DNA from: a virus
DNA: 62,516 nucleotides
Virus record (IMG/VR): IMGVR_UViG_3300019889_000015
Span: 1-62,516 of that record
Reading direction: 5' to 3' (one strand)
Under the pieces are notes generated by a model. That model was not told the origin of the DNA. It saw only the letters and a program-made list of their open reading frames with translations, and searched no databases. This document shows positions 42,167-62,450 of this stretch, piece by piece (within the stretch, counting starts at the first letter, position 1; every line of letters starts with the position of its first letter). Made by a program: the position numbers and the translations under genes.

Positions 42167-42330
42167 CACGCCACGTCGCCATTGATGGGATTTGCGCCAC
42201 CGATCACGAGCCTTGGCCCTGTTACGACGAGTACGTCAAACGCATCGTCGACGAGGCCCCCCCGTTCAGCCCCGAGCAGCGTGCCGCGCTCGTCGTGCTG
42301 TTCCAGCCCTCTTACGCCGTCCCGGCGTAG
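42163..42330 (+). CDS. 55-residue protein after Cro
   Basis: ATG overlapping the Cro stop (ATGA). Reads MTRHVAIDGICATDHEPWPC onward and ends PSYAVPA. Two Cys and two His could bind metal. Function unknown. Confidence 0.52.
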   Translation: MTRHVAIDGICATDHEPWPCYDEYVKRIVDEAPPFSPEQRAALVVLFQPSYAVPA

Positions 42331-42357
42331 ACCCCCCACACCCCGAAGGACTGAACC

Positions 42358-43830: not shown

Positions 43831-44060
43831 GAGTCCTCCTGATCCTGCTGCCCGGCCTGGCGATCGCCGGGCTGGCCACCATTCTCGCCCGCGCCTGGAT
43901 CGCAGCCACCACGAACCGGCTCCGCAGGGAAAGCCAGCGCCTGCACATGTTGCTGGCCGAGGTCGACCAGCTCGCCTACGAACACCGCGACGTCTCGCCC
44001 GAGCTGTCGTACCTGATCACGGACACGATCCGCCTCCGACGCAAGGAGATCCCCCAGTGA
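43827..44060 (+). CDS. Single-pass membrane protein
   Basis: 77 aa. An N-terminal membrane helix (LLILLPGLAIAGLATILARA), then charged helices. Coupled to the SPFH lipoprotein gene downstream, so it may be a partner at the membrane. Confidence 0.6.
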   Translation: MRVLLILLPGLAIAGLATILARAWIAATTNRLRRESQRLHMLLAEVDQLAYEHRDVSPELSYLITDTIRLRRKEIPQ

Positions 44061-44938
44061 AGAAGATCATCGCCACCGCCCTCGTCGTGACGGCCGGTGC
44101 CGCCCTCGTCGGCTGCACGTCCGGCACCGCAGGCCCCGACCAGCGTGGCCTGCACTACGACGCCGGACCCATCGCCGGGGCCGCTGACTTCGAGGCGTGC
44201 TACGGCCCGTCGAGCCGCAGTATCGACGACTTCGCCGACAAGCACTTCGAGTACCCGTTCGGTCAGCGGACCTTCGACTTCTCCACCGCCGAGGAGGCCG
44301 ACTCCGGCGCGATCAGCGTGGTGTCGAAAGACAACGTGACGATGACCGTCTCCGGGGTGGCCACGTTCGCCCTCAACCCCACCTGCGACGTGCTCCAGGA
44401 GTTCCACGAGCGGATCGGGCTGAAGTACGGCGCCTGGGAGGAAGGCGGCTGGATCTCGTTCCTGAACGTCTACCTGAAGCAGCCGCTGGACAAGGCGATG
44501 GATGCCGTGTCGAAGGAGTACGGCTATCGGGATCTCTACTCCAACCCCGAGGTCAAAGAGGAGTGGGAGGCCAAGGTCGGCGCCCTGGTGGCCCGTGAGG
44601 TCGAGTCGCTGGCCGGTGCCCCCTACCTGTGCTCGGCGAGCTTCGTCGGCGCCGAGAGCCAGTCGTGTGGCGACCTGTCACTGACCATTCAGACGCCGCA
44701 GCCGCCGGAGAACATCGTCAACGCGCTCGCGTCCGAGCAGCAGGCCGTCGCCGAGAACGAGGCCCAGAAGCAGCGCAACGCCACCGTCGTGACCGAGCTG
44801 GAGTCCACGAGGCTCCTCGTCGACGTGCTCGGCCCCGAGGCGTACGTCCTCCTGAAGGCCATCGAGGACGGCCGGATCACCGTGTTCCCGGTGCCCGGTG
44901 GCTCGAACATCAACCTCGCCCCGCCAGCCGCCCAGTGA
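44057..44938 (+). CDS. SPFH/Band 7-family lipoprotein
   Basis: 293 aa from GTG. Lipoprotein signal ending GAALVGC (Cys20). The middle fits an SPFH domain: VTMTVSGVATFALNP, then FLNVYLKQPLDKAMDA and VAREVESLAG; then a coiled coil (ASEQQAVAENEAQKQRNATV) and a short beta end. SPFH proteins oligomerise at membranes. Lipid anchoring outside the cytoplasm is unusual for the family. Possible role in membrane protection or remodelling. Confidence 0.72.
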   Translation: MKKIIATALVVTAGAALVGCTSGTAGPDQRGLHYDAGPIAGAADFEACYGPSSRSIDDFADKHFEYPFGQRTFDFSTAEEADSGAISVVSKDNVTMTVSGVATFALNPTCDVLQEFHERIGLKYGAWEEGGWISFLNVYLKQPLDKAMDAVSKEYGYRDLYSNPEVKEEWEAKVGALVAREVESLAGAPYLCSASFVGAESQSCGDLSLTIQTPQPPENIVNALASEQQAVAENEAQKQRNATVVTELESTRLLVDVLGPEAYVLLKAIEDGRITVFPVPGGSNINLAPPAAQ

Positions 44939-44945
44939 GAGAGCC

Positions 44946-45071
44946 ATGAGGACATTCCGAGCTAGCTACTTCGGCCGATGCCTGGCCTGTGACGACACGA
45001 TCGAGCCGGGCGATGAGGTCGGCTATGCCGACGACGAGTTGATCCACGCCGACTGCGACGAGGACGACTGA
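44946..45071 (+). CDS. 41-residue zinc-binding protein
   Basis: MRTFRASYFGRCLACDDTIE onward, with CLAC and later H-x3-C, a mini zinc-ribbon I have seen in actinophages (RCxxCxxxIxxGDxV). Starts 8 nt after the SPFH stop; its stop overlaps the next ATG (TGATG). Confidence 0.58.
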   Translation: MRTFRASYFGRCLACDDTIEPGDEVGYADDELIHADCDEDD

Positions 45072-45382
45072 TGGTCAACGCCGACGACCCGGCAATGAAG
45101 CGGATCAGGAAGAAGTTTGAAGACCTCGAACAAGACGGACTATTCGAGATCGAACAAACGGCGAAGCAGTCCGGGGAATTGAACCGCAAAGCCGCCAAGC
45201 CAAAGACCATTCGTTCGGAGAAGTGCGACCTCTGCAATAAGGAAAAGGTCGGAGTCATTCGGGTTCTGGATGACGAACACCGACCGCACTTCATTCTGAA
45301 GGACCACGAAGTGAAGTTTGGCCGAGCGAATTATAGGAAGTGCAAGGGCTCAGGAGTGGAGGTCGGCGAACATGCCAACTGA
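45071..45382 (+). CDS. Hypothetical protein, AT-rich
   Basis: 103 aa. Lys/Glu-rich helical start (AMKRIRKKFEDLEQDG) and a CDLCNKE pair. Uses AAA, GAA and ATT codons much more than neighbours, a sign of recent transfer. No family recognised. Confidence 0.58.
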   Translation: MVNADDPAMKRIRKKFEDLEQDGLFEIEQTAKQSGELNRKAAKPKTIRSEKCDLCNKEKVGVIRVLDDEHRPHFILKDHEVKFGRANYRKCKGSGVEVGEHAN

Positions 45383-45578
45383 CCACGGTAACTGCGGCAG
45401 CGGCTACGTCTACAACAACCACGTGCCGGACATTCCGAAAATGCCCGCGTGCGAGGCGATGATGCCGGTGCCGCAGAAAGAGAAGAAATACGGATTCGAC
45501 TGGCCGGGCATCGGCCCGCCGCCCAGGGCCGAAAACAGGATCGCTTTCACCGAGCGTCTCCGGAAAGCAAATGGATAG
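45372..45578 (+). CDS. Hypothetical small protein
   Basis: 68 aa, Pro/Lys-rich, without clear secondary structure (VPDIPKMPACEAMMPVPQKE). Overlaps the previous gene by 11 nt and shares its AT-richer codon use. Weak candidate. Confidence 0.48.
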   Translation: MPTDHGNCGSGYVYNNHVPDIPKMPACEAMMPVPQKEKKYGFDWPGIGPPPRAENRIAFTERLRKANG

Positions 45579-45590
45579 GAGAAGCGCCTA

Positions 45591-45911
45591 ATGACCAATA
45601 GCAAAAAGCCCAGCGCGTTCGCCGATATCGGCATCACCGATGAGGCGTTCGTCGCGGCCGGGATGGAGTGGGCCAAGCGGATGGGCGACGAGGCCCTGGT
45701 GGAGTGGCAGGCGCACCACGGGCTCATACCCAGGGAGGTCCACGAGGTCGCTCTGTTCGGTGCGACCGGCGGCGCCACCTACGCCTTCCGCACCCTGTCG
45801 GCGATCGGCGCCCTCTGGTACCCGCCGTTCCTGCTCCACCTGGGCTTCGCGATCCCCGAGCAGTACATGCCCGCCGATCTGCGGGCGCCCGATGGCCCCC
45901 CGCAGGACTGA
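45591..45911 (+). CDS. Hypothetical helical protein
   Basis: 106 aa, ATG with AGGAGAAGCG upstream. Hydrophobic patches (TLSAIGALWYPPFLLHLGFA) could be a membrane-touching helix. No family recognised. Confidence 0.58.
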   Translation: MTNSKKPSAFADIGITDEAFVAAGMEWAKRMGDEALVEWQAHHGLIPREVHEVALFGATGGATYAFRTLSAIGALWYPPFLLHLGFAIPEQYMPADLRAPDGPPQD

Positions 45912-46131
45912 GCCCAAGCAGATCCTCGTCGACCACGTGAGCCGCCGCGACCGCTTCGTCTCGGCGTTCGTGGTCACCCCGGACGGAACCCAGCACCGGA
46001 TCGGCTACCTGGCCAGCGAGGGGTGGTTCTGCTGCGCCGAGGAATGCCCCGGCGGCAAGCGGTGCAAGCAGATCAAGACCATCCAGAAGATCGTCCCCCC
46101 GATGGAACCACCGAAAGGAGCGACCCCGTGA
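45892..46131 (+). CDS. Small protein with SWIM-like Cys cluster
   Basis: 79 aa from the ATG at 45892, overlapping the previous gene by 20 nt. The C-terminal half WFCCAEECPGGKRCKQIKT resembles a SWIM finger with the last His replaced by Gln. SWIM fingers bind nucleic acid. It lies before the exonuclease gene. Confidence 0.55.
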   Translation: MAPRRTEPKQILVDHVSRRDRFVSAFVVTPDGTQHRIGYLASEGWFCCAEECPGGKRCKQIKTIQKIVPPMEPPKGATP

Positions 46132-47222
46132 CGGAGCCGCCCACTCAGGGTGCGGTGATCCTGCCGTTCATCCAGCCCAAGGTCCACGTCCACCGGGACC
46201 GCTACAAGAAGCCGATCATCCAGACTGGCGAGTTGCGGGCGGACGGAAAACCCCGAGCGCACACCTGCACGTCGTGCGACAAGTCCGTCCCCGGCATCCC
46301 GTACCGGCGCGCCACTACGTACATCGACGTGCTGGAGGACCGCTACAAGCTGGAGAAGTGGAAGCAGCGCGGCGTAGCCGTGGGCCTGGCCAAGGTGCCC
46401 GCGCTGCTGACGGCGGTGTCGGCGGCGATCAACAACGACCGGGAGCTGGACCGGCTCTGTGACGAGGCCCTGGAGCGGGCCGGGACCAGCGACAAGGCCA
46501 CCCACGGCACGGCGGTTCACGCCCTGGCCGAGCAGCTCGACGCGGGCCAGCGCCCGCTCGTGCCGCCGCACGTGCAGCCGGACATCGACGCCTACGCGGC
46601 AGCCACCAAGGGCATGAACATGCTCGACATCGAGACCTTCGTCGTGGTCGACGACCTCCAGGTGGCCGGGACCTTCGACCGGTTGATCGAGTACGACGGC
46701 CAGCGCTACATCGGCGACCTGAAGACCGGCTCGATCGAGTACGGCCTACCCAAGATCACGATGCAGCTCGCGATGTACGCCAAGGGCAAGCGCTATGACC
46801 CGCTCACCGGCATACGGAACGATCTCGACGTCGACCAGGACTACGGCATCGTCATCCACCTGCCCGCCGGTCAGGCCCGGTGCGAGATCAAGTGGGTGGA
46901 CCTGAGCAAGGGCCGTAACGGTATCGAGCGGGCGCTGGCCGTCTGGGACTGGCGCAAGGCCGACGGCCGAGACTTCATCGTCGCCGCCCCCGCCTTCGAC
47001 CTGCTCGGGATGATCTCGCTCTGCGGCGACGTGGACAGCCTCACCCGGTTGTGGTCGGCCTACAGGCACCTGTGGAACGACGAGGCCCAGGCCGCAGCCG
47101 TCGCGCGTAAGGCCGAGATCATCGCGGCCGGTGGCGCGGGCACCAGCGTCAACACCGTCGTCCGGCTACTCGCCGAGGGCGCAGCTCGTGCCGAGGCCCA
47201 GTTGCCGGAGGCGTGGCGATGA
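46128..47222 (+). CDS. Cas4/RecB-like PD-(D/E)XK exonuclease
   Basis: 364 aa from GTG at 46128 with GAAAGGAG upstream. RecB-family nuclease motifs: THGTAVHALAEQ near 126-136 (His131), GTFDRLIEYDG near 181 (Asp184), IGDLKTG near 195-201 and MQLAMYA near 212-218. An N-terminal CTSC pair may bind a metal. Probably resects DNA ends for recombination, with the SSB-like protein nearby. Confidence 0.82.
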   Translation: MTEPPTQGAVILPFIQPKVHVHRDRYKKPIIQTGELRADGKPRAHTCTSCDKSVPGIPYRRATTYIDVLEDRYKLEKWKQRGVAVGLAKVPALLTAVSAAINNDRELDRLCDEALERAGTSDKATHGTAVHALAEQLDAGQRPLVPPHVQPDIDAYAAATKGMNMLDIETFVVVDDLQVAGTFDRLIEYDGQRYIGDLKTGSIEYGLPKITMQLAMYAKGKRYDPLTGIRNDLDVDQDYGIVIHLPAGQARCEIKWVDLSKGRNGIERALAVWDWRKADGRDFIVAAPAFDLLGMISLCGDVDSLTRLWSAYRHLWNDEAQAAAVARKAEIIAAGGAGTSVNTVVRLLAEGAARAEAQLPEAWR

Positions 47223-47377
47223 GGTTCTTCGGAGCTGCGAACGTCGACGAGCTGCTCGACGACGCCCGCCGGATCGTGATCCAGACCGATACGTGCACGT
47301 GCGCCGACGATCCACACCAGAACGCTCTGCACGACCTGGCCCACGACGTGGTGGACATGTTCGGCGGTACTCAATGA
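47219..47377 (+). CDS. 52-residue protein
   Basis: ATG overlapping the nuclease stop and TGA overlapping the next ATG. Helical with a CTCADDPHQNALHDLAHD segment that could hold zinc. Function unknown. Confidence 0.52.
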   Translation: MRFFGAANVDELLDDARRIVIQTDTCTCADDPHQNALHDLAHDVVDMFGGTQ

Positions 47378-47604
47378 CCGGCTGGCTGATCCTCGCGATC
47401 TACCTGGTCGGGGTCGTCGTCACCTATCGGAGGGCGGTGCGATTCACCGTCGCCAACATCGACCACAGCGACCAGGAGGAGGCCCTGATCGCGGTCGTGC
47501 TGGCGACCGTCGCCGCCCTCATCTGGCCGGTCATCGTGCCGATCTGGCTGCTGTGGCGCTTCGCCAGCCCCAAGAAGACCAAAAACCCACCCAAGGAGGA
47601 GTAA
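47374..47604 (+). CDS. Two-pass membrane protein
   Basis: 76 aa. Helices LILAIYLVGVVVTYRRAV and AVVLATVAALIWPVIVPIWL, then a basic tail SPKKTKNPPKEE. Resembles small phage membrane proteins of unknown use in early operons. Confidence 0.6.
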   Translation: MTGWLILAIYLVGVVVTYRRAVRFTVANIDHSDQEEALIAVVLATVAALIWPVIVPIWLLWRFASPKKTKNPPKEE

Positions 47605-47610
47605 CCCCCC

Positions 47611-47988
47611 ATGCCCTTCACCCGCAAGCAACAGACGCGGATCGACGCGCTGAGCAAGGCCAGGGACCACCTGGCCCGGTGCCACGAGGTCAGCGCCACC
47701 GAGCTGATCGGCGTCGCCACATGGATCTTGGACGGCGAGATCCGACCGGCCATCGACGGCGGCTGCCGACTCGGCCACGGCTGGATCGCGATGGGCGCCC
47801 TCGACGGCACCAAGGAGGACCCGCTGCCCAGCGAGTTCGTCGAGCAGGTGACCGGACGCCCGCTCGACGACTGGCAGCGCGAGCTGGTCGATCACAACCG
47901 CCTCGAACGCGAAGAACCGGCGTTCAGCCAACCCCCCGAAGTCGACCTCGATCCCGAGGCCGACGACACCCAGGAAGGAAACAACTGA
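47611..47988 (+). CDS. Hypothetical protein
   Basis: 125 aa, ATG with AAGGAGGAG upstream. Helical first half, acidic disordered end finishing DDTQEGNN. The last codons and the ribosome site for the next gene (CACCCAGGAAGGAA) reappear at the end of the following gene. Confidence 0.58.
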   Translation: MPFTRKQQTRIDALSKARDHLARCHEVSATELIGVATWILDGEIRPAIDGGCRLGHGWIAMGALDGTKEDPLPSEFVEQVTGRPLDDWQRELVDHNRLEREEPAFSQPPEVDLDPEADDTQEGNN

Positions 47989-48215
47989 TGGCCCCCATGG
48001 CCCCCAACGGCTACTACGAGCCCGCCGACGAGGCGCACGTCGTCGTGACGCCGCTATTCACCCCCGAGCAGACGGCGAGGCTGCGCGTCATCGACGGCGT
48101 GACCACGGCCCTGTCTCGGGTCCGGCCCCCGGACGGCGAGGGCTTCCACGCCCAGGACGTCATCGACCTCGCCGACTACGTGCTCGGCACCACCCAGGAA
48201 GGAAGCAACGCATGA
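47988..48215 (+). CDS. Hypothetical protein
   Basis: 75 aa. Helical (EQTARLRVIDGVTTALSRVR) ending GTTQEGSNA. Shares the C-terminal codons and embedded ribosome site with the previous gene, pointing to a local duplication of the junction. Confidence 0.58.
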   Translation: MAPMAPNGYYEPADEAHVVVTPLFTPEQTARLRVIDGVTTALSRVRPPDGEGFHAQDVIDLADYVLGTTQEGSNA

Positions 48216-53219: not shown

Positions 53220-54137
53220 GTGCGCGTGCTGAACATTCCCGGCGGGGCCGACACGGGCGGCAACGGGTGGCGGACCAAGGATGCGTTCGACAGGTACCTC
53301 CCCGAGTGGACGTACAACCTGTGCGTCTCCAGCCCCAAGTACATGCTCTACCCGGTCGACCGGCCGTGGAGCGAGGCCCGGCAGCTCTGGGAAGCCGCCG
53401 ACGTCGTTCACGTCCGCAACAACTACGAGATCGAGCGGGTCCTGGGCGTGCAGCCCCGGCCCACCGTGATCCAGCACCACGGCACCCACTTCCGCACCGA
53501 GCACAACCAGCTCCGGCGGATAGCGGCGGCCCGTCGCTCGATCCAGATCGCCTCGACGCTTGACCTTTGGCTGATCGCCCCCGACGAGACCGAGTGGCTT
53601 CCGTCCCCGTACGACCTCGACTGGCTCCACGGCTTCCGCCTGCCGGACGAGGTACGCCCCGACGACGGCGTGTTCCGCATCGCCCACGCGCCCACCGATC
53701 GGCGAGTGAAGTCGACCGAACGGTTGATCGCCGCCGTCGAACGGCTGAGGAACTACGTGCCCGTCGAGCTGGACCTGATCGAGAACGCCTCGTGGCAGGA
53801 CTGCCTGCGGCGCAAGGGCCGGGCCGACGTCTACTTCGATCAGGTGATCCTGGGCTACGGCAACAACGCGATCGAGTCCTGGGGTATGGGCGTCCCCGTC
53901 ATCGCCGGGGCCGCCGACGCCACACTCGACGAGATGACGCGCCGGTTCGGCTCGCTGCCGTTCTACCCGGCCGACCAGACCACGATCTTTGACGCACTGA
54001 TGGCCCTCGCCGATCCTGAGACGAGGGCCACCTGGGCGAAGCGGGGCGAGGAGCACGTGTGGGAATTCCACGACGAGGCCGCCGTGGTCCCCCAGCTCCA
54101 GGACATGTACCAGCGGGCGTACGACGCCGGGGCTTAG
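53220..54137 (+). CDS. Glycosyltransferase
   Basis: 305 aa from GTG at 53220 (TGGAG upstream); an in-frame ATG at 53061 gives a poor, Pro-rich extension. GT4/GT-B-like: RVLNIPGGADTGGNGWR at the N-terminus, HHGTHFR in the middle, and the C-terminal nucleotide-sugar site GYGNNAIESWGMGVPVIAGA. Could modify phage DNA or host wall polymers. Stands alone with its own promoter and is convergent with the leftward operon. Confidence 0.78.
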   Translation: MRVLNIPGGADTGGNGWRTKDAFDRYLPEWTYNLCVSSPKYMLYPVDRPWSEARQLWEAADVVHVRNNYEIERVLGVQPRPTVIQHHGTHFRTEHNQLRRIAAARRSIQIASTLDLWLIAPDETEWLPSPYDLDWLHGFRLPDEVRPDDGVFRIAHAPTDRRVKSTERLIAAVERLRNYVPVELDLIENASWQDCLRRKGRADVYFDQVILGYGNNAIESWGMGVPVIAGAADATLDEMTRRFGSLPFYPADQTTIFDALMALADPETRATWAKRGEEHVWEFHDEAAVVPQLQDMYQRAYDAGA

Positions 54138-54280
54138 CTGGCGGGCCGGTTGAAATCCTCGTGCCGCCCGGAGCCGTTGCAGATCCTCCCTCTGGGGCGC
54201 GTGGAGTGCTGGGCGAGGAACCCGTTGGGGTCCACGCGTACGCCCTCCCGGCCGCACTCGTGGCATGTCGTGATCTTCAT
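54134..54280 (-). CDS. 48-residue zinc-finger-like protein
   Basis: MKITTCHECGREGVRVDPNG onward, with CHEC and later RICNGSGRH. ATG overlaps the upstream stop (ATGA) and has GAGAGGCG. Its stop overlaps the convergent glycosyltransferase end by 4 nt. Confidence 0.58.
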   Translation of the reverse strand: MKITTCHECGREGVRVDPNGFLAQHSTRPRGRICNGSGRHEDFNRPAS

Positions 54281-54456
54281 GTCCGCCTCTCCCTCTCCAG
54301 CCGCAGCAGGATCTCCAGCGCGCCAGAGGCCTCGCGGATCAGCTTGGCCAGTTCCTCGGTTCCCAGCTCGATGTTGGCTATGCGGCCACCGGTGCCGACA
54401 TGTTGCGAGACGCGGCTACTCAGCTCGGCCCGAGTGACGCATTCCTTTTCCGGCAT
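54277..54456 (-). CDS. 59-residue helical protein
   Basis: MPEKECVTRAELSSRVSQHV onward, then EELAKLIREASGALEILLRL. Helical and charged, ATG with GGGGGG upstream. Function unknown. Coupled to the zinc-finger gene. Confidence 0.55.
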   Translation of the reverse strand: MPEKECVTRAELSSRVSQHVGTGGRIANIELGTEELAKLIREASGALEILLRLERERRT

Positions 54457-54465
54457 TTGCCCCCC

Positions 54466-54678
54466 CTAGAGTTTCCGGCCGGTACCCCGGCTTGCTCGAA
54501 GTCGATCTTCTAGATCGTCACACCCGGCGTCGTTGCCGACCGGGCCGTACTGATTGACGAGCAGGAACCACGGGCACCGATACCCGTCGTCCTGCCGCGT
54601 CCAGAGCTTGCGACCTCGCGCCCACAACTCGCCCTCCTGGTCCCGGACGACGGCGTACATGCGCTTCGGCTCGTCCAT
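54466..54678 (-). CDS. Hypothetical protein
   Basis: 70 aa from the ATG at 54678, 8 nt after GAGGA; an ATG at 54684 is too close to it. KRMYAVVRDQEGELWARGRK then DDGYRCPWFLLVNQ suggests a small beta domain. Preceded by a 9-codon reading (MIWFWLTLA) at 54690-54719 that overlaps the upstream stop. Confidence 0.58.
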   Translation of the reverse strand: MDEPKRMYAVVRDQEGELWARGRKLWTRQDDGYRCPWFLLVNQYGPVGNDAGCDDLEDRLRASRGTGRKL

Positions 54679-54716
54679 GATCATTCCTCTCTAGGCCAGT
54701 GTCAGCCAGAACCAGA

Positions 54717-54935
54717 TCATGCGGTGGTCTCCAGCTCGAACCGGCTCGCATGCCATGGCCCTGGCTCTGCTGCCCCGTCGAACTGGACAGTCACCCAGCG
54801 GTGGTTTTCAGAGTCCACGGTCACGGTGCCGATGGTCCCGACCGGGAACGGGAGGACCCGCGCCCTGGTCGGTAGCACGCTCGGCAACGTGTTGTTGATC
54901 AACCGCACGCGGTCACCCTTTTTGAACATTTTCAT
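54717..54935 (-). CDS. Small KOW/SH3-like protein
   Basis: 72 aa. KKGDRVRLINNT then VGTIGTVTVDSENHRWVTVQ is a typical small SH3-like barrel. ATG with GAGGGTGA upstream, overlapping the previous gene by 23 nt. Role unknown, possibly nucleic-acid or protein binding. Confidence 0.6.
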   Translation of the reverse strand: MKMFKKGDRVRLINNTLPSVLPTRARVLPFPVGTIGTVTVDSENHRWVTVQFDGAAEPGPWHASRFELETTA

Positions 54936-55170
54936 CGCCGGTCACCCTCTTTCGCGGCTCCTCGATCCTGTGGGTCTCCAGGTATCGGCGAGCGGCCCTG
55001 TAGTCCTCGTGACGGGGGGGATCGGTCAGCTCCAGCACACGGTCCACGAACGCTTGCCACTGCGACTGACTGAGGAATATGTAAGCCGTGGGGGACGGTT
55101 TACGCGCCCTCTTGAAGATGTGTTCGCGGGCGATGATGTCGATGGCCTCGGCGAGACGATTGTCGGCCAT
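54913..55170 (-). CDS. Hypothetical protein, MADNRL family
   Basis: 85 aa. Starts MADNRLAEAIDIIAREHIFK and is paralogous to the gene at 38878-39150. Basic, helical. Immediately downstream of the second paralogue family member (55170-55508). Confidence 0.62.
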   Translation of the reverse strand: MADNRLAEAIDIIAREHIFKRARKPSPTAYIFLSQSQWQAFVDRVLELTDPPRHEDYRAARRYLETHRIEEPRKRVTGDENVQKG

Positions 55171-55508
55171 CAGGGCCAGATCCAGTCGACTCGAACCCAG
55201 TTGAACCTGTCAGGTTGCAACATCCTCACCGTGGCATAGGCCATAGCGTCGGTGACCGTCTGCATCAGCAGTTGTCGTTGGTCATCGGCCTGTTGCCATG
55301 CCGACGACGTGATCGTGAATCGTCGGGTGTGTTCAGGCATCGGCCGGAGTGGGATCACCCCGGCCACGACCTCGATGATGAGGCGCGCACCGTCGGCTTG
55401 CGGGGGCTGGCTTGCGGCCTGCGTTTGCTGGATCGCATCGATCAATTCCTGGGGCATCGGCATCTCGTAGCTACCGGGCGGCAGGATGTTGCTGGGCTCG
55501 TTGGTCAT
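55170..55508 (-). CDS. Hypothetical protein, paralogue of 28816-29058
   Basis: 112 aa. The C-terminal 75 residues match the rightward gene at 28.8 kb (RLIIEVVAG; FTITSSAW; DQRQLL; PDRFNWVRVDWIWP). The N-terminal 38 residues are an extra Pro/Gln-rich segment. Coupled to both neighbours. Confidence 0.62.
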   Translation of the reverse strand: MTNEPSNILPPGSYEMPMPQELIDAIQQTQAASQPPQADGARLIIEVVAGVIPLRPMPEHTRRFTITSSAWQQADDQRQLLMQTVTDAMAYATVRMLQPDRFNWVRVDWIWP

Positions 55509-55816
55509 GAATTCTCCTCTGGCGCGGGGAACGCCGGGACGGGCTGCGCTAGGGCGGCGTCGGCAATCGCCTTGAGTAGGTTCTGCTCGTTGAACACCGC
55601 CGTGCGGACGGTCTTCCCGGTCTCCTTGTCCTTGATCCAGAGCTTTATCCCCAGGGGGATGATCCGTACCCAGGTCAGCTCATACTTGTCGCTCTCGCCC
55701 GAGGCGAGAACCTGCGTCAGGTTCATCGGCGAGTAGCCCTCGTGGATCTCTAGCGGCAGGCCCGGCAGGGTGACCGTGGTTGGTTCCGGGTGGGTGTGCG
55801 ACTCAGTGATCTTCAT
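55505..55816 (-). CDS. Hypothetical protein
   Basis: 103 aa. Beta-rich centre (YELTWVRIIPLGIKLWIKDK) with a helical end. Ribosome site GAGAGGA, in the conserved junction TAGAGAGGAA also used at 54.69 kb. No family recognised. Confidence 0.58.
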   Translation of the reverse strand: MKITESHTHPEPTTVTLPGLPLEIHEGYSPMNLTQVLASGESDKYELTWVRIIPLGIKLWIKDKETGKTVRTAVFNEQNLLKAIADAALAQPVPAFPAPEENS

Positions 55817-55828
55817 CGTTTTTCCTCT

Positions 55829-56068
55829 CTAGGCCAGTGCAGCGGACATCGACCAGAAACTGACGAACAAGATCACGACCGAACCCCCGGCCGGACCGTA
55901 GACCGGGATCTTGGCGTGCCACCCCTCGCGGCCCCAGACGGCCACTGGGATGACCAGACAGAGCCCCATGGCAGCCAGTCCCGCGAGGATGCCCACGGCG
56001 CTCCCACGGGGCGCCAGACGCGGCACGAAGGCCAGCACGAGCGCCGCGACGACCATCGCGCGGATCAC
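55829..56068 (-). CDS. Two- or three-pass membrane protein
   Basis: 79 aa from GTG at 56068, overlapping the upstream stop. Hydrophobic stretches MVVAALVLAFVPRLAP, AVGILAGLAAMGLCLVIPVA and GGSVVILFVSFWSMSAAL. Function unknown. Confidence 0.6.
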   Translation of the reverse strand: MIRAMVVAALVLAFVPRLAPRGSAVGILAGLAAMGLCLVIPVAVWGREGWHAKIPVYGPAGGSVVILFVSFWSMSAALA

Positions 56069-56484
56069 TGGCGCGTCTCCCGGTCGGCCTTGGCGCGACG
56101 GATGCGGGCCGAATACGCCTCGCGCGTCTGGTCGGCTATAGCCGTCAGGATCTTGTCGGTCATTTCCCCCAGGTGATCACGGTCGTCGTGGTCGACGGGG
56201 GTAGCGCCCTGCCCCAGCTCGCCTTCCCGGTGGGCGTGACGCTCCGGCACGGTCAGCGACGCCAACGGGCTGCCGTCCTCCCTGAGTCGGTTACGGGTCG
56301 TCGCGCGGAACGCGGGAACAGTGAACGTCCCCAGACTGTCCGACAGCTCGCGCGCCCTCTGCAAGATCATGTCCGGGATCATCCCGATCACGTCGTCTTC
56401 TACCTCGGCCGGGTCTAGCCCGTACTCATTGGCCCACGCTTTCAGGTCGACATCGACACGTAGTGTCAGGGTCAATCTGGCCAT
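56065..56484 (-). CDS. Hypothetical protein, first cassette-preceded gene
   Basis: 139 aa, ATG with GAGGAGAA from repeat copy A. LTLTLRVDVDLKAWANEYGL, then EDDVIGMIPDMILQRARELS, ending in a basic helix (RIRRAKADRETRQ). No family recognised. Confidence 0.6.
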   Translation of the reverse strand: MARLTLTLRVDVDLKAWANEYGLDPAEVEDDVIGMIPDMILQRARELSDSLGTFTVPAFRATTRNRLREDGSPLASLTVPERHAHREGELGQGATPVDHDDRDHLGEMTDKILTAIADQTREAYSARIRRAKADRETRQ

Positions 56485-56577
56485 GATCGTTCTCCTCGCT
56501 CGGTTGTGAGGTCGTCCGGTCGGACGTGGCACGCGACAGCTCCCCGGCGGCTGTCACGCACCATGCGCGACCGGTCA
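56485..56577 (-). repeat. Stop-to-start cassette, copy A
   Basis: About 93 nt from the stop of the upstream gene to the ATG at 56484. Read leftward: TGACCGG, GCGCGACAGC/GCTGTCGCG hairpin, GTCCG-AC-CGGAC hairpin, then CGAGCGAGGAGAACGATC before ATG. Confidence 0.88.
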
Positions 56578-56814
56578 GCGCCCGGACCCTACCGGGGTCA
56601 CCCGGATGATCTTGTCCCCCCGCGTCGTGATCTCGACGGGCACGCCGATGTTCTCGGAGTTGGTGATGCCGTAATTCACGGCCCCGTCCGCATCGGTCAG
56701 CATCGAACCGATGTCGCCCGCGAAGAACACCTGGTGTCGCGGGTTGCCGTTGTTGGTGTTCGCCCCGACGCGTTCCACGCTCGCGATGGTGGCGACGAAA
56801 GTGTGCTTGGTCAT
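56575..56814 (-). CDS. Small beta-rich protein
   Basis: 79 aa. TKHTFVATIASVERVG then RHQVFFAGDIGSMLTD and VPVEITTRGDKIIRVTPVG; an OB- or SH3-like barrel is likely. Preceded by only a partial repeat (CAGGAGCAAACGATC). Function unknown. Confidence 0.6.
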   Translation of the reverse strand: MTKHTFVATIASVERVGANTNNGNPRHQVFFAGDIGSMLTDADGAVNYGITNSENIGVPVEITTRGDKIIRVTPVGSGR

Positions 56815-57149
56815 GATCGTTTGCTCCTGTTCACTCTGATGTACTCCCACGTGCCGTCCCATGTACCGTCGTCCCACGACTCGCCGACTGGTCCCCAGCC
56901 GTGCTCGCGCAGCAGGCGTAGGACCAGCTCCCGGCCCGGCCCGGTGTCGAGGTTCGGGCACTGGTACTCGGGTTCCAGGTCGGTCTGGTCGTGCTCGTCG
57001 TCGAAATAGTTCGCGTCGAACACGTCGACCTGGGAGCCCTCATCATCGACGACATGGACCGGCACCGAGTAGCAGAATCGGCCGTTGACGTGTCCGACTG
57101 CCGCTTCACCGCCCGGCCCGTCAACGTTGTTCAGTTTCGCCGTGAACAT
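56811..57149 (-). CDS. Hypothetical acidic protein
   Basis: 112 aa, ATG with GGGGAGGGG upstream. VNGRFCYSVPVHVVDDEGSQ then a helical end with WDDGTWDGTWEYIRVN. No family recognised. Overlaps both neighbours. Confidence 0.58.
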   Translation of the reverse strand: MFTAKLNNVDGPGGEAAVGHVNGRFCYSVPVHVVDDEGSQVDVFDANYFDDEHDQTDLEPEYQCPNLDTGPGRELVLRLLREHGWGPVGESWDDGTWDGTWEYIRVNRSKRS

Positions 57150-57546
57150 GGCCCCTCCCCCCGGTCTTCTTGGTCTTCTTGGCAGGCTTGCGCGGTGTGC
57201 CCAGCCATGCGGATACCGTGCGCCAGTCGCGCCCGACAAGGCGCGCGGCAGCGAGCTTGGACGCTCCTTGGGCGATTTCCATGGTGACGATCTGCCGTAG
57301 TCCGGCCAGTGCCTCGGCTTCGGCCTGACGGGCTTGGGCGAGCTTGAGATTCAGCCGTGCGACCTCCCGGTCGCGCTCCCCGGCGAGATGCTTATACGCC
57401 GCTATGCGCGCGTCGGTGCGCTCCCCGTCCCGGTCGGCCGGGTACCGCTCGTTGATCTCGTCGAACAGGACGGCCAGCTCTCGCGCCCGCTCGTCGGGCA
57501 CGTCTTCGTCGAGCCACATACGGATCTCGTCGAGACTCGTCGCCAT
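57121..57546 (-). CDS. Helix-turn-helix protein with Lys-rich tail
   Basis: 141 aa. A long coiled coil (ERDREVARLNLKLAQARQAE) followed by a helix-turn-helix (GASKLAAARLVGRDWRTVSA) and a basic tail KPAKKTKKTGG. The best candidate in the right arm for a protein acting on the repeated cassettes. Ribosome site GGGGAGAAACGATC is a half-cassette. Confidence 0.6.
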   Translation of the reverse strand: MATSLDEIRMWLDEDVPDERARELAVLFDEINERYPADRDGERTDARIAAYKHLAGERDREVARLNLKLAQARQAEAEALAGLRQIVTMEIAQGASKLAAARLVGRDWRTVSAWLGTPRKPAKKTKKTGGRGHVHGETEQR

Positions 57547-57574
57547 GATCGTTTCTCCCCTTGCTATTGGTCGG

Positions 57575-58042
57575 TCAGTTGCTCGCGTCGGCCCGCGTAC
57601 GAACGATAGTGATCGTGCCGCCCCGCGCGAGATGCGTTCGATAGTTTTCGTGGTCGCGTCGGAACGAGACCGTCCCATCCTTGAGCGTGCGCACGCTGAC
57701 AACCGCGTGAGTGCCGCCCCAGATGTCGAACACAAGGTCCCCGGCGCGTAGCTCGGTCACGGGAACCTTGGTCGCGTCCGGCCGCACGTCGGCGATGTCG
57801 ACGATTGCCACGACCGGGGGTGCGTCATCCCCGGCGATACCGGCGATACGGTCGGCCGCGTGCTGGCAGGCGAGCAACTCGGCCGCTCCCCGGTCACCAG
57901 CGCCCCCTAGGCGCTCCCCGGCGAACCGGACCACCCACTCTTGCCCCGGCCTGAGTGCCGGGTCGTCAGCGGGCTCGTAGCGCCCCGCATACTCGATCTC
58001 GACGGAGTAACGGCTGTCGCGCGTCCCATCTCGGTGAAACAT
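57575..58042 (-). CDS. Hypothetical protein
   Basis: 155 aa. N-terminal beta domain (SRYSVEIEYAGRY), then a helix with AACQHAAD-like spacing (LLACQHAADRIAGIAG) and a Hint/SH3-like end (ELRAGDLVFDIWGGTHAVVS). No family recognised. Confidence 0.58.
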   Translation of the reverse strand: MFHRDGTRDSRYSVEIEYAGRYEPADDPALRPGQEWVVRFAGERLGGAGDRGAAELLACQHAADRIAGIAGDDAPPVVAIVDIADVRPDATKVPVTELRAGDLVFDIWGGTHAVVSVRTLKDGTVSFRRDHENYRTHLARGGTITIVRTRADASN

Positions 58043-58136
58043 GGTCGTTCTCCTCGCTCGGTTGTGAGGTTGCCCGGTCGGGCACGACACGCGACAGCTC
58101 CCCGGTAACTGTCGCGCATCGTGCGCGGTCGGGTCA
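58043..58136 (-). repeat. Stop-to-start cassette, copy B
   Basis: As copy A, but the second hairpin is GCCCG-AC-CGGGC, a compensated change on both arms. Ends GAGCGAGGAGAACGACC before the ATG at 58042. Confidence 0.88.
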
Positions 58137-58352
58137 GTGCTCGCGCTCGTACGGGTCGATGCCTAGCCGTACCCTGACGGTCTCGTCGAGCTTGCACGGT
58201 TCGATCGTCAGCGTCCCATCAGCCTTGAGCGCGAAGACGATCAGCCCGCTCCCGTTGGGCGACTCGAATCGGATCGTCCGCTCGTTTGGGTAGTCACGGC
58301 GCGTCAACGGCGGTTCGGTGTCCACCATGATCCGGCTACGCGTGTTGCACAT
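58134..58352 (-). CDS. Small beta-rich protein
   Basis: 72 aa. RTIRFESPNGSGLIVFALKA then GTLTIEPCKLDETVRVRLG. Simple beta-sheet pattern. No family recognised. Flanked by cassettes B and C. Confidence 0.58.
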   Translation of the reverse strand: MCNTRSRIMVDTEPPLTRRDYPNERTIRFESPNGSGLIVFALKADGTLTIEPCKLDETVRVRLGIDPYEREH

Positions 58353-58445
58353 GATCGTTCTCCTCGCTCGGTTGTGAGGTTGCCCGGTCGGGCACGACAC
58401 GCGGCAGCTCCCCGGTAGCTGTCGCGCATCGTGTGCGGTCGGTTA
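58353..58445 (-). repeat. Stop-to-start cassette, copy C
   Basis: Almost identical to B and D. Uses TAA rather than TGA at its upstream end. One base of the first stem differs (GGCAG for GACAG). Confidence 0.88.
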
Positions 58446-58610
58446 GAAACCCTCCGGTAATTCGTAGGGACGCCACACGCGGGCGATGTGCGCCCGGTAC
58501 CGGTCCGCCCCGTTGCCGACGTGACTCCCGCATCGACAGTTCCCCCATGGGCTCACGACGTGCGCCTTTACGACTTGTTGGAAATGTTCGGGCGATCCGT
58601 GCACGATCAT
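58443..58610 (-). CDS. 55-residue protein
   Basis: MIVHGSPEHFQQVVKAHVVS onward, with NCRCGSHVG and several His. May bind zinc. Flanked by cassettes C and D, so it is a single-gene unit. Confidence 0.55.
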   Translation of the reverse strand: MIVHGSPEHFQQVVKAHVVSPWGNCRCGSHVGNGADRYRAHIARVWRPYELPEGF

Positions 58611-58704
58611 GATCGTTCTCCTCGCTCGGTTGGTGAGGTTGCCCGGTCGGGCACGACACGCGACAGCTCCCCGGTAGCTGTCGCGCATCGTGCGCGGTCG
58701 GTCA
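58611..58704 (-). repeat. Stop-to-start cassette, copy D
   Basis: Differs from C mainly by one extra G in the stretch before the ribosome site (GTTGGTGAG against GTTGTGAG on the + strand). Both hairpins intact. Confidence 0.88.
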
Positions 58705-59301
58705 GCCGTCCGCTTTGGCCTTGTGGATCATGCGCAAGATCTTCTTGGCAAGGTCCGGCGACAGGTCCCGCGCGACGATCGTCACGGCGGTTCCTTGGTA
58801 GTTGGATTCGGCTTTCAGCTCGTAGCCCCAGCTAACCTCTGTGCCGTGACCACGCTCGCCGACGTGCGCCCCCGGTGCGAGCTTGCTCAACGACTCGCCC
58901 AGCTTGGCGCGCCCCACTTCCGCCTCGTCGCGCTTGCGTAGCGCGGCCTGTGCCCTTGCCAGTTCCGCTCGGTATTCGGGCAGTACGCGCGTCGCTATGG
59001 CCTTTGCTATGGCCTTAGCGCCCCGCTCGGTCGCCACGGTCGCCCTGACGTTCGCGAGGCCGGGGTAGACCTCGCTGTACGCGCCGAGGGGGTAGTTCCC
59101 GCTAGCCTCGATGCGTGACGCGTCGTCATAGCTATTGCGGCCGCTTGCGGCTAGGTGGATCCGCGCCCCGTCCGGTCCGGCCAGCATGCAGTCATGATCA
59201 TATTTCGATGCCTCGACTACCCACGACTGGCCATCGGCAGCCGTCAGCTCGCGTGCGACGTCGGGCGCGATAGCCCGTATCGTCTCGGTGCCCTTGTTCA
59301 T
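58702..59301 (-). CDS. Hypothetical protein
   Basis: 199 aa. N-terminal alpha/beta region (QSWVVEASKYDHDCMLAGPD), a long charged helix (RAELARAQAALRKRDEAEVG), and a C-terminal beta-helix unit (YELKAESNYQGTAVTIVARD). Similar proteins occur in actinophages and plasmids by my recollection. Function unknown. Confidence 0.58.
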   Translation of the reverse strand: MNKGTETIRAIAPDVARELTAADGQSWVVEASKYDHDCMLAGPDGARIHLAASGRNSYDDASRIEASGNYPLGAYSEVYPGLANVRATVATERGAKAIAKAIATRVLPEYRAELARAQAALRKRDEAEVGRAKLGESLSKLAPGAHVGERGHGTEVSWGYELKAESNYQGTAVTIVARDLSPDLAKKILRMIHKAKADG

Positions 59302-59401
59302 GATCGTTCTCCTCGCTCGGTTGTGAGGTCGTCCGGTCGGACGTGGCGCGCGGACAGTTACCCCGGTCGGGTCGCTGTCGCGCACCATGCGCGGTCGGTC
59401 A
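59302..59401 (-). repeat. Stop-to-start cassette, copy E
   Basis: Longer first loop (about 17 nt with CCCGACCGGGG) between GACAG and CTGTC; GTCCG-AC-CGGAC second hairpin. Confidence 0.88.
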
Positions 59402-59929
59402 GGGGCGCCTGTAACCGTCGGTACCGTCGAGCTTGTCGGCGAGACTTTCGATCTCGGCGCGCGCGTCGTCGGTCAGCGGCTCAACGAGCCACCGCGACCC
59501 CCACCGATACCCGGTCTCCGGGCACTGTGGCGTGTTGTCGAGCCGGTATCTGCTGCGCTTGTCCCACGACACGTTGTCGGGCACCGTGACGGCCGTTTGA
59601 TGCGCGCAACCCGCGCGCATGTCGTTGAGATGCCAGCGCTCCCACGCGCGACGTAGCGCCCCGATCTCGTCGAGCGTCCACCCCGGCGCCGGGGTCGTGA
59701 TCTCGTTGAGAATGTCGACGATCTGCCCGGCGCCGTCGCTGTCGCGACGACGCGACCTCTCGCGGAACGTGTGACCCATCATCGACACGCGCTCGTGTGC
59801 CCTGATGCCGTGGTGGTCGATTGTCTCGGCGGGCACGCTTTCGCTTTCCCACGCCTGCCATGCGATCGTGATCTCGACGTAGACACTCTCGCCATCGCCG
59901 GTCTTGCCGATGAATCCTTGCCGTTCCAT
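59399..59929 (-). CDS. Conserved actinophage/plasmid protein
   Basis: 176 aa. LRRAWERWHLNDMRAGCAHQ then CPETGYRWGSRWLVEPL is a conserved pair of motifs I recall from many actinobacterial phages and plasmids; the Cys/His set may bind metal. Role unknown. Flanked by cassettes E and F. Confidence 0.62.
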   Translation of the reverse strand: MERQGFIGKTGDGESVYVEITIAWQAWESESVPAETIDHHGIRAHERVSMMGHTFRERSRRRDSDGAGQIVDILNEITTPAPGWTLDEIGALRRAWERWHLNDMRAGCAHQTAVTVPDNVSWDKRSRYRLDNTPQCPETGYRWGSRWLVEPLTDDARAEIESLADKLDGTDGYRRP

Positions 59930-60031
59930 GGTCGTTCTCCTCGCTCGGTCGTTGCTCGGTCGTCCGGTCGGACGTGGCACGCGGACAGTTACCCGGTCGG
60001 GTCGCTGTCGCGCACCATGCGCGGTCGGTCA
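59930..60031 (-). repeat. Stop-to-start cassette, copy F
   Basis: Like E, with an altered stretch before the ribosome site (GACCGAGCAACGACCGAGCG) suggesting an internal duplication of CGACCGAGC. Confidence 0.88.
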
Positions 60032-60259
60032 GGCTTCCGGGTTAACGTGCACGTCGAATTCAGCCGTGTGGAAGCCGATCACGGCCAGCACGCGGAAGCC
60101 TTGATGTGTCACGAGCGAGTCAGCGTGCCCGGCATTCGCAGCCCCCTTGACCGTGATCACTTCCGATCGAACGCGCGTGAGCGTTACCTCGGGGTAACCG
60201 TGCACGGTCGTCTGTGCGAATGTCAGCGTCTCGCCGACGATAAAGTCAGGTCGAATCAT
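60029..60259 (-). CDS. Small beta-rich protein
   Basis: 76 aa. GETLTFAQTTVHGYPEVTLT then GFRVLAVIGFHTAEFDVHVN. All-beta pattern. No family recognised. Flanked by cassettes F and G. Confidence 0.58.
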   Translation of the reverse strand: MIRPDFIVGETLTFAQTTVHGYPEVTLTRVRSEVITVKGAANAGHADSLVTHQGFRVLAVIGFHTAEFDVHVNPEA

Positions 60260-60350
60260 GGTTGATCTCCTCGCTCGGTTGGGTCGTCCGGCCGGACGTG
60301 GCACGCGACAGGTTCCCCCGTCGCTGTCGCGCATCACGCTCGGTCGGTCA
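60260..60350 (-). repeat. Stop-to-start cassette, copy G
   Basis: First stem GCGACAG/CTGTCGC with loop CGACGGGGGAAC; second hairpin GTCCG-GC-CGGAC, with the loop rather than the stem changed. Confidence 0.85.
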
Positions 60351-60659
60351 GCCGTGAGAGACGCGTACGCCACCGCGCGGACCGAACTCGACAAGCCGGT
60401 CAGGGTAAGGGTCGGACGTCTCGCGAGGGTCGGACAGATACAGACTCATGCTCGCGCGATCGTCGACGCTCGGAGTCAGCGTTGTGTCGGTCCTGCCGTT
60501 CGCGTAGGTGAACGTCTGAGGCTGCCAGTAGCCAATGTTCGCGCGGTCCGCGAATGCCTCGCGCGCGGCAGCCATGCTCGGGAACGTCTCCAGGTGATCG
60601 TCAAGGTAGGACGGCCCGTAGCTACTGCCACCGTTCCAAAGTGCGAATAGCGTCATCAT
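60348..60659 (-). CDS. Conserved actinophage/plasmid protein
   Basis: 103 aa (or 102 from the second ATG). ALWNGGSSYGPSYLDDHLET then PSMAAAREAFADRANIGYWQ and a Pro/Asp-rich end. A family I recall from actinobacterial mobile elements. Role unknown. Confidence 0.6.
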   Translation of the reverse strand: MMTLFALWNGGSSYGPSYLDDHLETFPSMAAAREAFADRANIGYWQPQTFTYANGRTDTTLTPSVDDRASMSLYLSDPRETSDPYPDRLVEFGPRGGVRVSHG

Positions 60660-60708
60660 GATCGTTTCTCCTCGCTCGGTCGTGCTCGGTCGGTCGTCCG
60701 GTCGGTCA
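60660..60708 (-). repeat. Stop-to-start cassette, truncated copy H
   Basis: 49 nt. Keeps the stop-side TGACCGACCG and the ribosome-site end (CGAGCGAGGAGAAACGATC) but lacks the main hairpin, a natural deletion variant. Confidence 0.8.
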
Positions 60709-60882
60709 GGCTACGTCGAGAGTCGCGCTGGCCCCGCTGGTCTCGCGATCCTCAACGGCGTGCCGATAACCGCGCGCAAACGCGATCGAGTAGCCCGTTA
60801 GCTCCGCGTAAGTGAGCGTGCGAGACGTGCCTACGTCGTAGCCCGCTAGGTAGTCTTTGTCGCGCTGCTGTTGTCGCGTCAT
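60706..60882 (-). CDS. 58-residue protein
   Basis: MTRQQQRDKDYLAGYDVGTS onward, then YAELTGYSIAFARGYRHAVE. A helical repeat (YLAGYDVG against FARGYRHA). Flanked by cassettes H and I. Clean start with GAGGAGCAACGATC. Confidence 0.58.
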   Translation of the reverse strand: MTRQQQRDKDYLAGYDVGTSRTLTYAELTGYSIAFARGYRHAVEDRETSGASATLDVA

Positions 60883-60983
60883 GATCGTTGCTCCTCGCTC
60901 GGTCGTGCTCGGTTGGTTGTCCGGTCGGACATGGCACGCGACAGGTTCCCCCGTCGCTGTCGCGCACCACGCTCGGCCGGTCA
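60883..60983 (-). repeat. Stop-to-start cassette, copy I
   Basis: Full copy with GCGACAG/CTGTCGC stem and GTCCG/CGGAC second stem. Ribosome end CGAGCGAGGAGCAACGATC. It is the first cassette met by leftward transcription. Confidence 0.86.
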
Positions 60984-62012
60984 GTGCCGGTCAGCGTTGC
61001 CGGTCAGTTCGTCCGTGTCGATCCCCTCGCTGTCGGCCCAGTCGTTGAACCCGCAGCGGTAGGCCGTGGGGTCGATCTCGCGCAGCACGCGCGACGGCTG
61101 ATAGGTCAGCTCGCCGATAGTGACCGGCCCGTCGATCTCGTCGATCATGTCGTCATAACGCTCATAAACCTCATCCCACGACAGCGGCTCGTCGTCGTCG
61201 TCATCGTCGTCGGTCTCGGCGTCGTCGGTCTCGGCGACGCTGACCGAGTAGGAGAGGCCTAGGTCGTGGTCGCCGTCATATCCGGGCGTCGCGCCGTGAA
61301 CAGTGCCCGTACCGTCGGCCGCTAGGCCATGTTCGGCCAACCATTCGGACATCTCGCCCTGCCAATGCGCGGCCGTCCCCAGTACGGCGAGCGTTTCACG
61401 CGTGGCCGTGTATTCGCCGGACCAATTGCCGTCCACCCACTCTGGGGAGTTATCCTCGCCCCGTTCGCGCTCGTCCGCGAGGTATTCCCATGCCTCTTGC
61501 GCGCTGTCAAAAACGGCGGGCTCGTCGCCGCCCGTGGGCAGGTATCCGGGCACGTTGATCGTTGCGACGTAGCGCGTTGCGGGCTCGGTCGTCGGCGACT
61601 TGATCTCGTAGAGATCGACTGACCAGACGGGCCGCACGCCATACTCGGCCGACATCCACACGTTGTAGTTGACGACGTACGGGTGACCGTCGAGACCGAC
61701 AAACACACTGTCGCGGTCGGACACAGCCATGCCGTTGAAATCGGCCATGTCGTCGAACACGACGAGACCGTCATCGGCCACGTTGGACACGCTGATCTCA
61801 GTGGGCAGGTAGTCAGGCACACCGTGGAAGATCACAAACGTGTTGCCGTAGTAGTCAGTTTGGATCAGCGAACCGTCGCGTGCGACGTAATCCGGGCGGA
61901 TCACCAACGGCAGTCCGGGGATGCGGTCAGATGCGGCCGTTGGCCAGACCACATGGTGCCCGCCTTGCGCGTTGCTGGTGCTGGGGATGGTCGTCATGTT
62001 GTTGTCAGTCAT
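60981..62012 (-). CDS. Large acidic protein, first gene of the right-arm leftward operon
   Basis: 343 aa, ATG with GAGAGGCG upstream. Contains FDSAQEAWEYLADERERGED with WSGEYTATRETLAVL, a domain I recall from actinobacterial plasmid proteins; an Asp run (AETDDDDDDDEPLSW near 270); and a C-terminal RCGFNDWADSEGI. The N-terminal 150 residues are beta-rich. Function unknown; as first gene it should be made earliest. Confidence 0.62.
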   Translation of the reverse strand: MTDNNMTTIPSTSNAQGGHHVVWPTAASDRIPGLPLVIRPDYVARDGSLIQTDYYGNTFVIFHGVPDYLPTEISVSNVADDGLVVFDDMADFNGMAVSDRDSVFVGLDGHPYVVNYNVWMSAEYGVRPVWSVDLYEIKSPTTEPATRYVATINVPGYLPTGGDEPAVFDSAQEAWEYLADERERGEDNSPEWVDGNWSGEYTATRETLAVLGTAAHWQGEMSEWLAEHGLAADGTGTVHGATPGYDGDHDLGLSYSVSVAETDDAETDDDDDDDEPLSWDEVYERYDDMIDEIDGPVTIGELTYQPSRVLREIDPTAYRCGFNDWADSEGIDTDELTGNADRH

Positions 62013-62059
62013 GGTCGGCGCCTCTCGTGTGCTCGGTTGGTAGGTCGAACACTACGGCC

Positions 62060-62104
62060 GTTCTACGTACGGCACAACGTATGGCACAACGTACGGCATA
62101 TTGT
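62060..62104 (-). promoter_or_regulatory. Promoter/operator of right-arm leftward operon with 12-bp tandem repeats
   Basis: Tandem units ACGGCACAACGT (62069), ATGGCACAACGT (62081) and the diverged ACGGCATATTGT (62093). Read leftward they overlap a possible promoter TTGTGC, 18 nt, TAGAAC (62089 to 62060). Repeats across a promoter spacer suggest repressor binding. Confidence 0.55.
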
Positions 62105-62147
62105 TACAACATCGTTATACGCACCTATGGCACAAGGTGATCTTGAT

Positions 62148-62450
62148 ATGCCTAGTCAGCCATGGTCACAGGGCTATAAGGGCTTTCCTACTGCCATGCG
62201 TAGGCGCATATTGCGGGAGGAGAAGCATTGCCGGGTGTGTGGGGAGATAGCCACGGTGGCGGATCACATCGTGGGGCATGCCGATGGTGTGGCCATGGGT
62301 TGGACGTTGACCAGGATTCACAGCAGAGCCAATGGTCAGGCGTTGTGTGATGACTGCCACGATGCGAAGACAGAAGCGGAAAAGAAACGCGGTCGTGAAC
62401 GTAGATCGATCAAGCGTCGGCCAGAGTCGCATCCTGGCCTGATGGGTTGA
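62148..62450 (+). CDS. HNH endonuclease
   Basis: 100 aa from the ATG at 62148 (AAGGTGATC upstream); the ATG at 62127 lacks a site. HNH motif: CRVCGEIATVADHIVGHADG with the catalytic DH, then Asn in NGQALCDDCHDAKTEAE. Zinc-binding CxxC pairs frame it. HNH proteins beside terminases assist packaging cleavage (HK97 gp74 type); here the small terminase is next in the circular map. Confidence 0.85.
   Translation: MPSQPWSQGYKGFPTAMRRRILREEKHCRVCGEIATVADHIVGHADGVAMGWTLTRIHSRANGQALCDDCHDAKTEAEKKRGRERRSIKRRPESHPGLMG

Follow-up and report, generated by a model that had tools for sequence, protein, structure and literature searches.

A repeated stop-to-start hairpin cassette in an actinophage operon as a candidate RNA processing or stabilizing signal

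Introduction

What is the function of a long hairpin that recurs, joined to a stop codon, a ribosome site and a start codon, at nine gene junctions of a single phage operon? The junctions span 56482-60983 on the minus strand of IMG/VR virus record IMGVR_UViG_3300019889_000015, a contig of 62,516 bases that was analyzed in full (hereafter, the window). Little is understood of how phages draw separate expression levels for many small accessory genes in a row from a single transcript, and what start-associated repeats do has been an open question since 2011. The junction element, which we call the cassette, unites stop, hairpin, ribosome site and start and is thus a clean test object, and the operon offers a natural series of eight full copies, one copy without a hairpin (H) and one vestigial copy. 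We propose, with about an even chance of being right, that the cassette is an RNA processing or stabilizing signal in a polycistronic mRNA. This reading is the best supported, mainly because the same slot in the right-arm operons of other actinophages holds hammerhead ribozymes or a tRNA-like minihelix.

One cassette copied at nine junctions

An initial annotation, made by a model from the sequence alone, described nine stop-to-start repeats (A-I). All nine lie at the positions it gave, on the minus strand. A blastn comparison of copy B with the window gives E 5e-49 to 2e-4 across the nine copies. A de novo repeat scan returned this nine-member family alone, with no other family of at least three copies in the window. 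The start block GAGNGAGGAGAACGATCATG occurs seven times at up to three mismatches against 0.03 occurrences expected, and chance is excluded as the origin of the family. Every copy extends exactly from the upstream stop codon to the downstream ATG, the stop being TAA in C and TGA in the others, and all nine end in GAGGAGAACGATC-ATG or near variants.

Eight copies are full, at 94-105 nucleotides (nt) with the start codon counted: A (56482-56577), B (58040-58136), C (58350-58445), D (58608-58704), E (59299-59401), F (59927-60031), G (60257-60350) and I (60880-60983). Element I, which scores 92 bits with the covariance model of the family, consists of TGA, a 16-base pair (bp) stem, a 12-nt loop, a GTCC/GGAC stem, a leader, GAGGAG and ATG. 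The short copy H (60657-60708, 52 nt) contains the stop, CCGACCGGAC...GAGGAG and ATG. To these nine we add a vestigial junction on the same strand at 57544-57578, where TGACCGACC...AGGGGAGAAACGATCATG preserves both cassette ends without the hairpin and gives a weak covariance-model match.

The cassettes sit in a leftward gene run that extends on the minus strand from 62012 down to approximately 54134. Each gap of at least 46 nt in this run is exactly one cassette and nothing else, and the remaining gaps are overlaps or are no longer than 32 nt. The genes between the copies were rightly described as unrelated, given that the operon proteins share no real similarity with one another in an all-against-all blastp comparison.

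Predicted RNA structure of the cassette

Each full copy can form two stems, as the initial annotation recognized, although their dimensions and their relationship differ from its description. Stem 1 is an imperfect inverted repeat of 16-18 bp with a loop of 11-17 nt, of which the annotation had seen only GACAG/CTGTC; even this core is not kept throughout, as copy C breaks one of its five pairs (CTGCC). In most copies, stem 1 can be extended through mismatches to approximately 27 paired positions that include the stop codon (the rod). Stem 2 consists of 4 bp closed by a GACC tetraloop (GGCC in G), since the 5-bp version first described would leave a sterically impossible 2-nt loop. Its pairing variants are real, with GCCC/GGGC in the B, C and D subfamily and GTCC/GGAC elsewhere, including G, which carries GTCCG/CGGAC as GTCCGGCCGGAC and had been omitted from the list. 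Stem 2 and the outer rod use the same bases and are therefore mutually exclusive. The rod is the preferred predicted fold in six full copies, whereas E and F prefer two hairpins, and H has no hairpin at all.

The hairpins are predicted to be stable, with z scores of -1.8 to -4.9 over the full copies (-4.9 in B and -4.1 in D), and seven of the eight (not C) fall within the approximately 3% most stable 70-nt windows of the phage. With G-U pairs included, the longest uninterrupted helix on the mRNA strand is 18 bp in B and D, 16 bp in I, 14 bp in A and 9-11 bp in C, E, F and G, and on the opposite strand it is 9-11 bp. The longer predicted helices of D, B, I and A thus speak in favor of the mRNA strand. 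Sequestration of the Shine-Dalgarno sequence by a hairpin (CCUC with GAGG) was ruled out as a common function, as it is predicted in A-E only.

E and F share a bulged C and a long loop. The insert in this loop, CCCGACCGGG, duplicates the motif that forms stem 2 in B, C and D, which gives the appearance that part of one hairpin was copied into another.

The same slot in other actinophages

What occupies the corresponding position in other phages? In Streptomyces phage VieEnRose, a de novo repeat scan shows that a right-arm operon, also leftward, likewise has repeats at its wide junctions. These repeats run from TGA to the ribosome site and start and contain GGCGAAAC-stem-GUC-stem-CUGAUGAGCC. 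They include eight type II hammerheads (RF02276) above the Rfam gathering score at 40118-47714 on the minus strand, and the related phage Celia has seven above the same score at 5298-13022 (minus strand of the sequence examined). In both phages, every wide junction of the leftward operon in the right arm carries one hammerhead, placed after the stop codon and before the ribosome site. No paper naming hammerhead arrays for VieEnRose or Celia turned up in the literature searched. Lika, a Streptomyces phage of the same subfamily, has no hammerheads in its wide junctions by Rfam; instead, a tRNA-like T-arm (e.g. GGGTTCGAGTCCC) recurs in seven of its ten wide junctions, mostly with a short acceptor-like stem, at 8777-14046 on the minus strand of the sequence examined. 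ARAGORN calls no tRNA in these elements, and their best Rfam hit, to mascRNA, has E 1.8; we infer from their sequence that the minihelix may be a tRNA-like processing signal. The minus strand of the window contains no such T-arm (GTTCRANNC).

Clustered hammerheads that flank single genes were described in prophages in 2011, with the proposal that they cleave transcripts into pieces the length of an operon or of a single gene, and their cleavage was demonstrated in vitro and, for one set, in Escherichia coli (PMC3088659). Like these prophage arrays and those of VieEnRose and Celia, the cassette is a structured RNA found at one junction after another of a phage operon, on either side of single genes that are not constant, and as in VieEnRose it lies between TGA and the ribosome site. 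Unlike them, it lacks the hammerhead core (CUGAUGA, GAAAC), forms a plain long hairpin rather than a three-stem junction and has no Rfam match.

We therefore considered a new class of self-cleaving ribozyme in the slot that hammerheads hold in Celiavirus. The slot and layout shared with the hammerhead arrays fit this idea, as does the missing Rfam match. A catalytic RNA is nevertheless highly improbable: the cassette has no invariant set of unpaired core nucleotides, its terminal loop differs between subfamilies, the bases of its internal loop pair in A and, in part, in G and I, and H is entirely without the hairpin element.

How would a processing or stabilizing signal work here? The leftward accessory operon would be transcribed as one long mRNA in which each hairpin presents a double-stranded signal. 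An RNase III-like host nuclease might cut the hairpin, or the hairpin might stop 3' exonucleases. The outcome would be separately stable and separately initiated single-gene messages that share the same ribosome site. By its layout, the cassette would function in the manner of the hammerhead arrays without being one.

RNase III processing sites with proven cleavage lie between the early genes of phage T7. These sites resemble the cassette as irregular intergenic hairpins within a polycistronic phage mRNA; they differ in that they are not a repeated unit with stop and start, and cleavage is only supposed for the present cassette. More broadly, and more tentatively, it is possible that actinophage right-arm accessory operons have a standard stop-to-start slot for interchangeable RNA-processing devices (hammerheads in Celiavirus, the tRNA-like minihelix in Lika and, here, an undescribed double-stranded rod), such that unrelated phages would have converged on single-gene messages. 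The presence of three kinds of element in the same slot makes per-gene RNA processing directly testable.

Covariation and other evidence on the processing signal

The compensatory changes that the initial annotation reported are real. Changes on both sides that retain pairing occur at three stem-1 pairs (positions 11, 13 and 14 from the loop) and at one stem-2 pair; most thus lie in the outer part of stem 1, which the annotation had overlooked. Nearly all of them separate B, C and D from the other copies. With seven different rows in the alignment and a single main division into subfamilies, the two-sided changes may represent just one or two events. Stem 1 stands out against slid partners, with 94.6% of cells paired compared with 58.9% in the best slid register.

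Several results weigh against a processing or stabilizing signal. When the 3' letters of stem 1 were shuffled among copies, 161 of 500 shuffles equaled the observed number of pairs changed on both sides, and column shuffles did so for paired cells in 78 of 500. Stem 2 beats its shuffles (18 of 500) on one varying pair, which probably reflects one event. Because the stem-1 changes do not exceed column shuffles and stem 2 depends on a single pair, the covariation falls short of significance and is supportive rather than decisive. Moreover, over the 27 rod positions, 26 G-U pairs stand against 21 A-C mismatches, approximately equal counts, so that both strands fold almost equally well. The use of G-U pairs as proof of the sense strand is weakened by this full-rod count.

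An RNase III site is a long, mostly paired irregular hairpin. B, D, I and A have uninterrupted helices of 14-18 bp and most copies a long rod broken by mismatches, and the 9-11 uninterrupted pairs of C, E, F and G are short for a classical site. A search with PF14622 found no RNase III encoded by the phage; a host enzyme would therefore be needed, and the idea of a phage-borne RNase III was dropped. In addition, H is a junction that does without any hairpin, and no relative of the cassette was found against which its conservation could be measured. The RNA control or processing site suggested in the initial annotation is the best-supported function, mainly by virtue of the hammerhead and minihelix slots, and the compensatory evidence for it is weak.

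Comparison with start-associated repeats and transcriptional signals

Does the inverted repeat act in DNA rather than in RNA? The start-associated repeats (SAS/ESAS) of cluster K mycobacteriophages, with which the cassette had been compared, are the nearest described layout. They too are present in many right-arm copies, in wide junctions upstream of the starts of different genes, and they combine an imperfect inverted repeat of approximately 17 bp, a variable spacer and a conserved block with AGGAG; the cassette has 16-18 bp and a spacer of 11-17 nt. The comparison is apt in layout and fails in content. The 13-bp SAS GGGATAGGAGCCC beside the start codon is absent from all nine cassettes. ESAS has SigA-like -35/-10 hexamers, as in Adephagia (PMC11373665), and the cassettes have none. 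The departures among ESAS copies were stated by the authors not to support RNA pairing (PMC3203893), whereas the changes in the cassette inverted repeat largely keep pairing. Furthermore, the cassette comprises the whole junction from stop to start. The cassette is therefore not a member of the SAS/ESAS family.

The likeness to ESAS plus SAS (PMC3203893) still raises the question of whether a protein of the phage or the host binds the inverted repeat as an operator, a role suggested for the cluster K ESAS, with the start block merely traveling along. Such a site would account for the near-equal folding of both strands, and two-sided changes are also expected in a palindromic site. It would not account for the 18-bp helices of B and D, which depend on G-U pairs of the mRNA strand, or for the exact stop-to-start span of all nine copies, and the loop length varies between 11 and 17 nt. 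In contrast to ESAS (PMC11373665), moreover, neither -35/-10 hexamers nor TANNNT occur in any copy: TANNNT is absent from both strands of all nine, and the elements contain no -10 hexamer or other promoter-like site. We regard a DNA operator as rather unlikely. In Gordonia phages of cluster DJ, intergenic repeats of approximately 50 bp at start sites carry a TATAAT promoter hexamer (PMC9671010, PMC9753669). These repeats are similar to the cassette in being repeated blocks upstream of ATG starts. They differ in this hexamer and in that no long hairpin has been described for them.

A strong GC-rich hairpin located right behind each stop codon could also be an attenuator or partial terminator that ends a fraction of the transcripts at each junction and thereby generates a falling gradient of expression. 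No U-run follows any of the hairpins, though, and no terminator-like site lies inside an element; eight serial terminators would silence the distal genes unless they were very weak. Attenuation is thus quite improbable.

Spread and loss of the cassette

Neighboring copies are more alike than distant ones, with 94-97% identity among B, C and D, 95% between E and F and 91% between G and I (Mantel P 0.04). H equals an I-like copy from which the segment between its CCGACCG direct repeats, and with it the hairpin, has been removed, except for three bases. From these two patterns, local duplication or recombination is the probable means by which the cassette spread, and the hairpin has evidently been lost at least once with the stop and the ribosome site retained.

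Might the cassette then be a recombination module or a neutral duplicated junction, in which homologous recombination between copies moves units of element plus gene and the hairpin plays no regulatory role? The initial annotation had raised recombination, and it is a possible route of cassette spread: single, mutually unrelated orphan genes lie between the copies, adjacent copies are the most alike and H resembles a deletion product. As a function it is not supported, and we consider it unlikely, for it leaves the kept long hairpin and the two-sided changes unexplained, and relatives with reshuffled cassettes were not found.

In integron attC arrays, imperfect palindromes alternate with single genes that are unrelated to one another. 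Their palindromes are similar in size to those of the present gene row, but the cassette ends are unlike the attC R and L boxes, and the cassette carries a ribosome site. An integron attC array was rejected, as a PF00589 search found no tyrosine recombinase in the record and the integrase that it encodes is a serine integrase; by that test, the locus is not an integron-like array.

Searches for relatives

The cassette is known from one genome. Matching elements in related phages, for which the initial annotation had suggested a search, were looked for and none was found. A blastn search against 50,697 phage records gave only 28-nt chance matches. In IMG/VR, an exact stem pattern returned 11 matches, all judged chance on inspection, and three exact start-end patterns returned zero. 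One exact pattern scanned against 84,980 bacterial and archaeal genomes gave 21 single matches, taken as chance or as low-complexity ACCG runs. Exact-pattern scans miss diverged relatives, and their outcome denotes an absence of close relatives only. Among terminase-related IMG/VR records, searches with blastn of copy B (22 records) and with the covariance model (33 records) revealed no convincing element, the best being a single match at E 0.004. Rfam gave no match in the window at the gathering score and no ribozyme match in 56-61.5 kb at E up to 1. A search for related loci with two operon proteins produced one weak locus for one and none for the other, and the de novo repeat scan, run on 13 further phage genomes or genome fragments, found the cassette sequence in none, although it brought the hammerhead and tRNA-like arrays to light. 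By these comparisons, the cassette sequence is new in every collection searched, and its layout is of an already known kind.

Two other structures came to light. The covariance model matches the plus strand weakly (E 9e-4) at 9527-9616 of the window, where a hairpin of approximately 21 bp directly follows the stop of the gene at 8876-9529 and precedes a terminator-like hairpin (AATCTCC...GGAGATTTTG); this is not a cassette copy. In the right arm of Mycobacterium phage JacoRen57, the de novo scan found a five-copy family of AT-rich 46-65-bp repeats at 46024-48205 of the sequence scanned.

Genome and operon context

The window encodes a terminase, a portal, a tape measure, a large serine integrase, a RuvC-like resolvase and a primase/helicase-like protein. 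The terminase is closest to those of Gordonia and Mycobacterium phages (approximately 64% identity), which identifies the source, from its genes, as a temperate actinophage. All genes of the operon described below are on the minus strand.

The first gene (60981-62012) encodes 343 amino acids, of which residues 147-257 match gp71 of VieEnRose, its best phage match, and the C-terminal part matches phrog_9294. Between the cassettes, at 57575-60882, lie eight mutually unrelated single genes for proteins of 58, 103, 76, 176, 199, 55, 72 and 155 amino acids, most of which lack a PHROGs or Pfam match. The three genes at 56575-57546, between the vestigial junction and element A, overlap and have no cassettes; they encode an HTH-like protein of 141 amino acids and proteins of 112 and 79 amino acids. 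The promoter-distal portion of the run (54134-56484) is tightly packed and likewise free of cassettes. Upstream of the first gene, the leader of the leftward operon (62013-62170) contains repeated TTGTGCC(A/G)TACG motifs in an AT-richer stretch; it separates the operon from a rightward HNH-like gene and may be a promoter and operator region.

One IMG/VR sample (IMGVR 3300021976) contains a 17,854-base contig, 3300021976_000098, that is 100% identical to 1-17854 of the window. A second contig from the same sample encodes a terminase with 73% identity, and a related phage is therefore also present in that sample.

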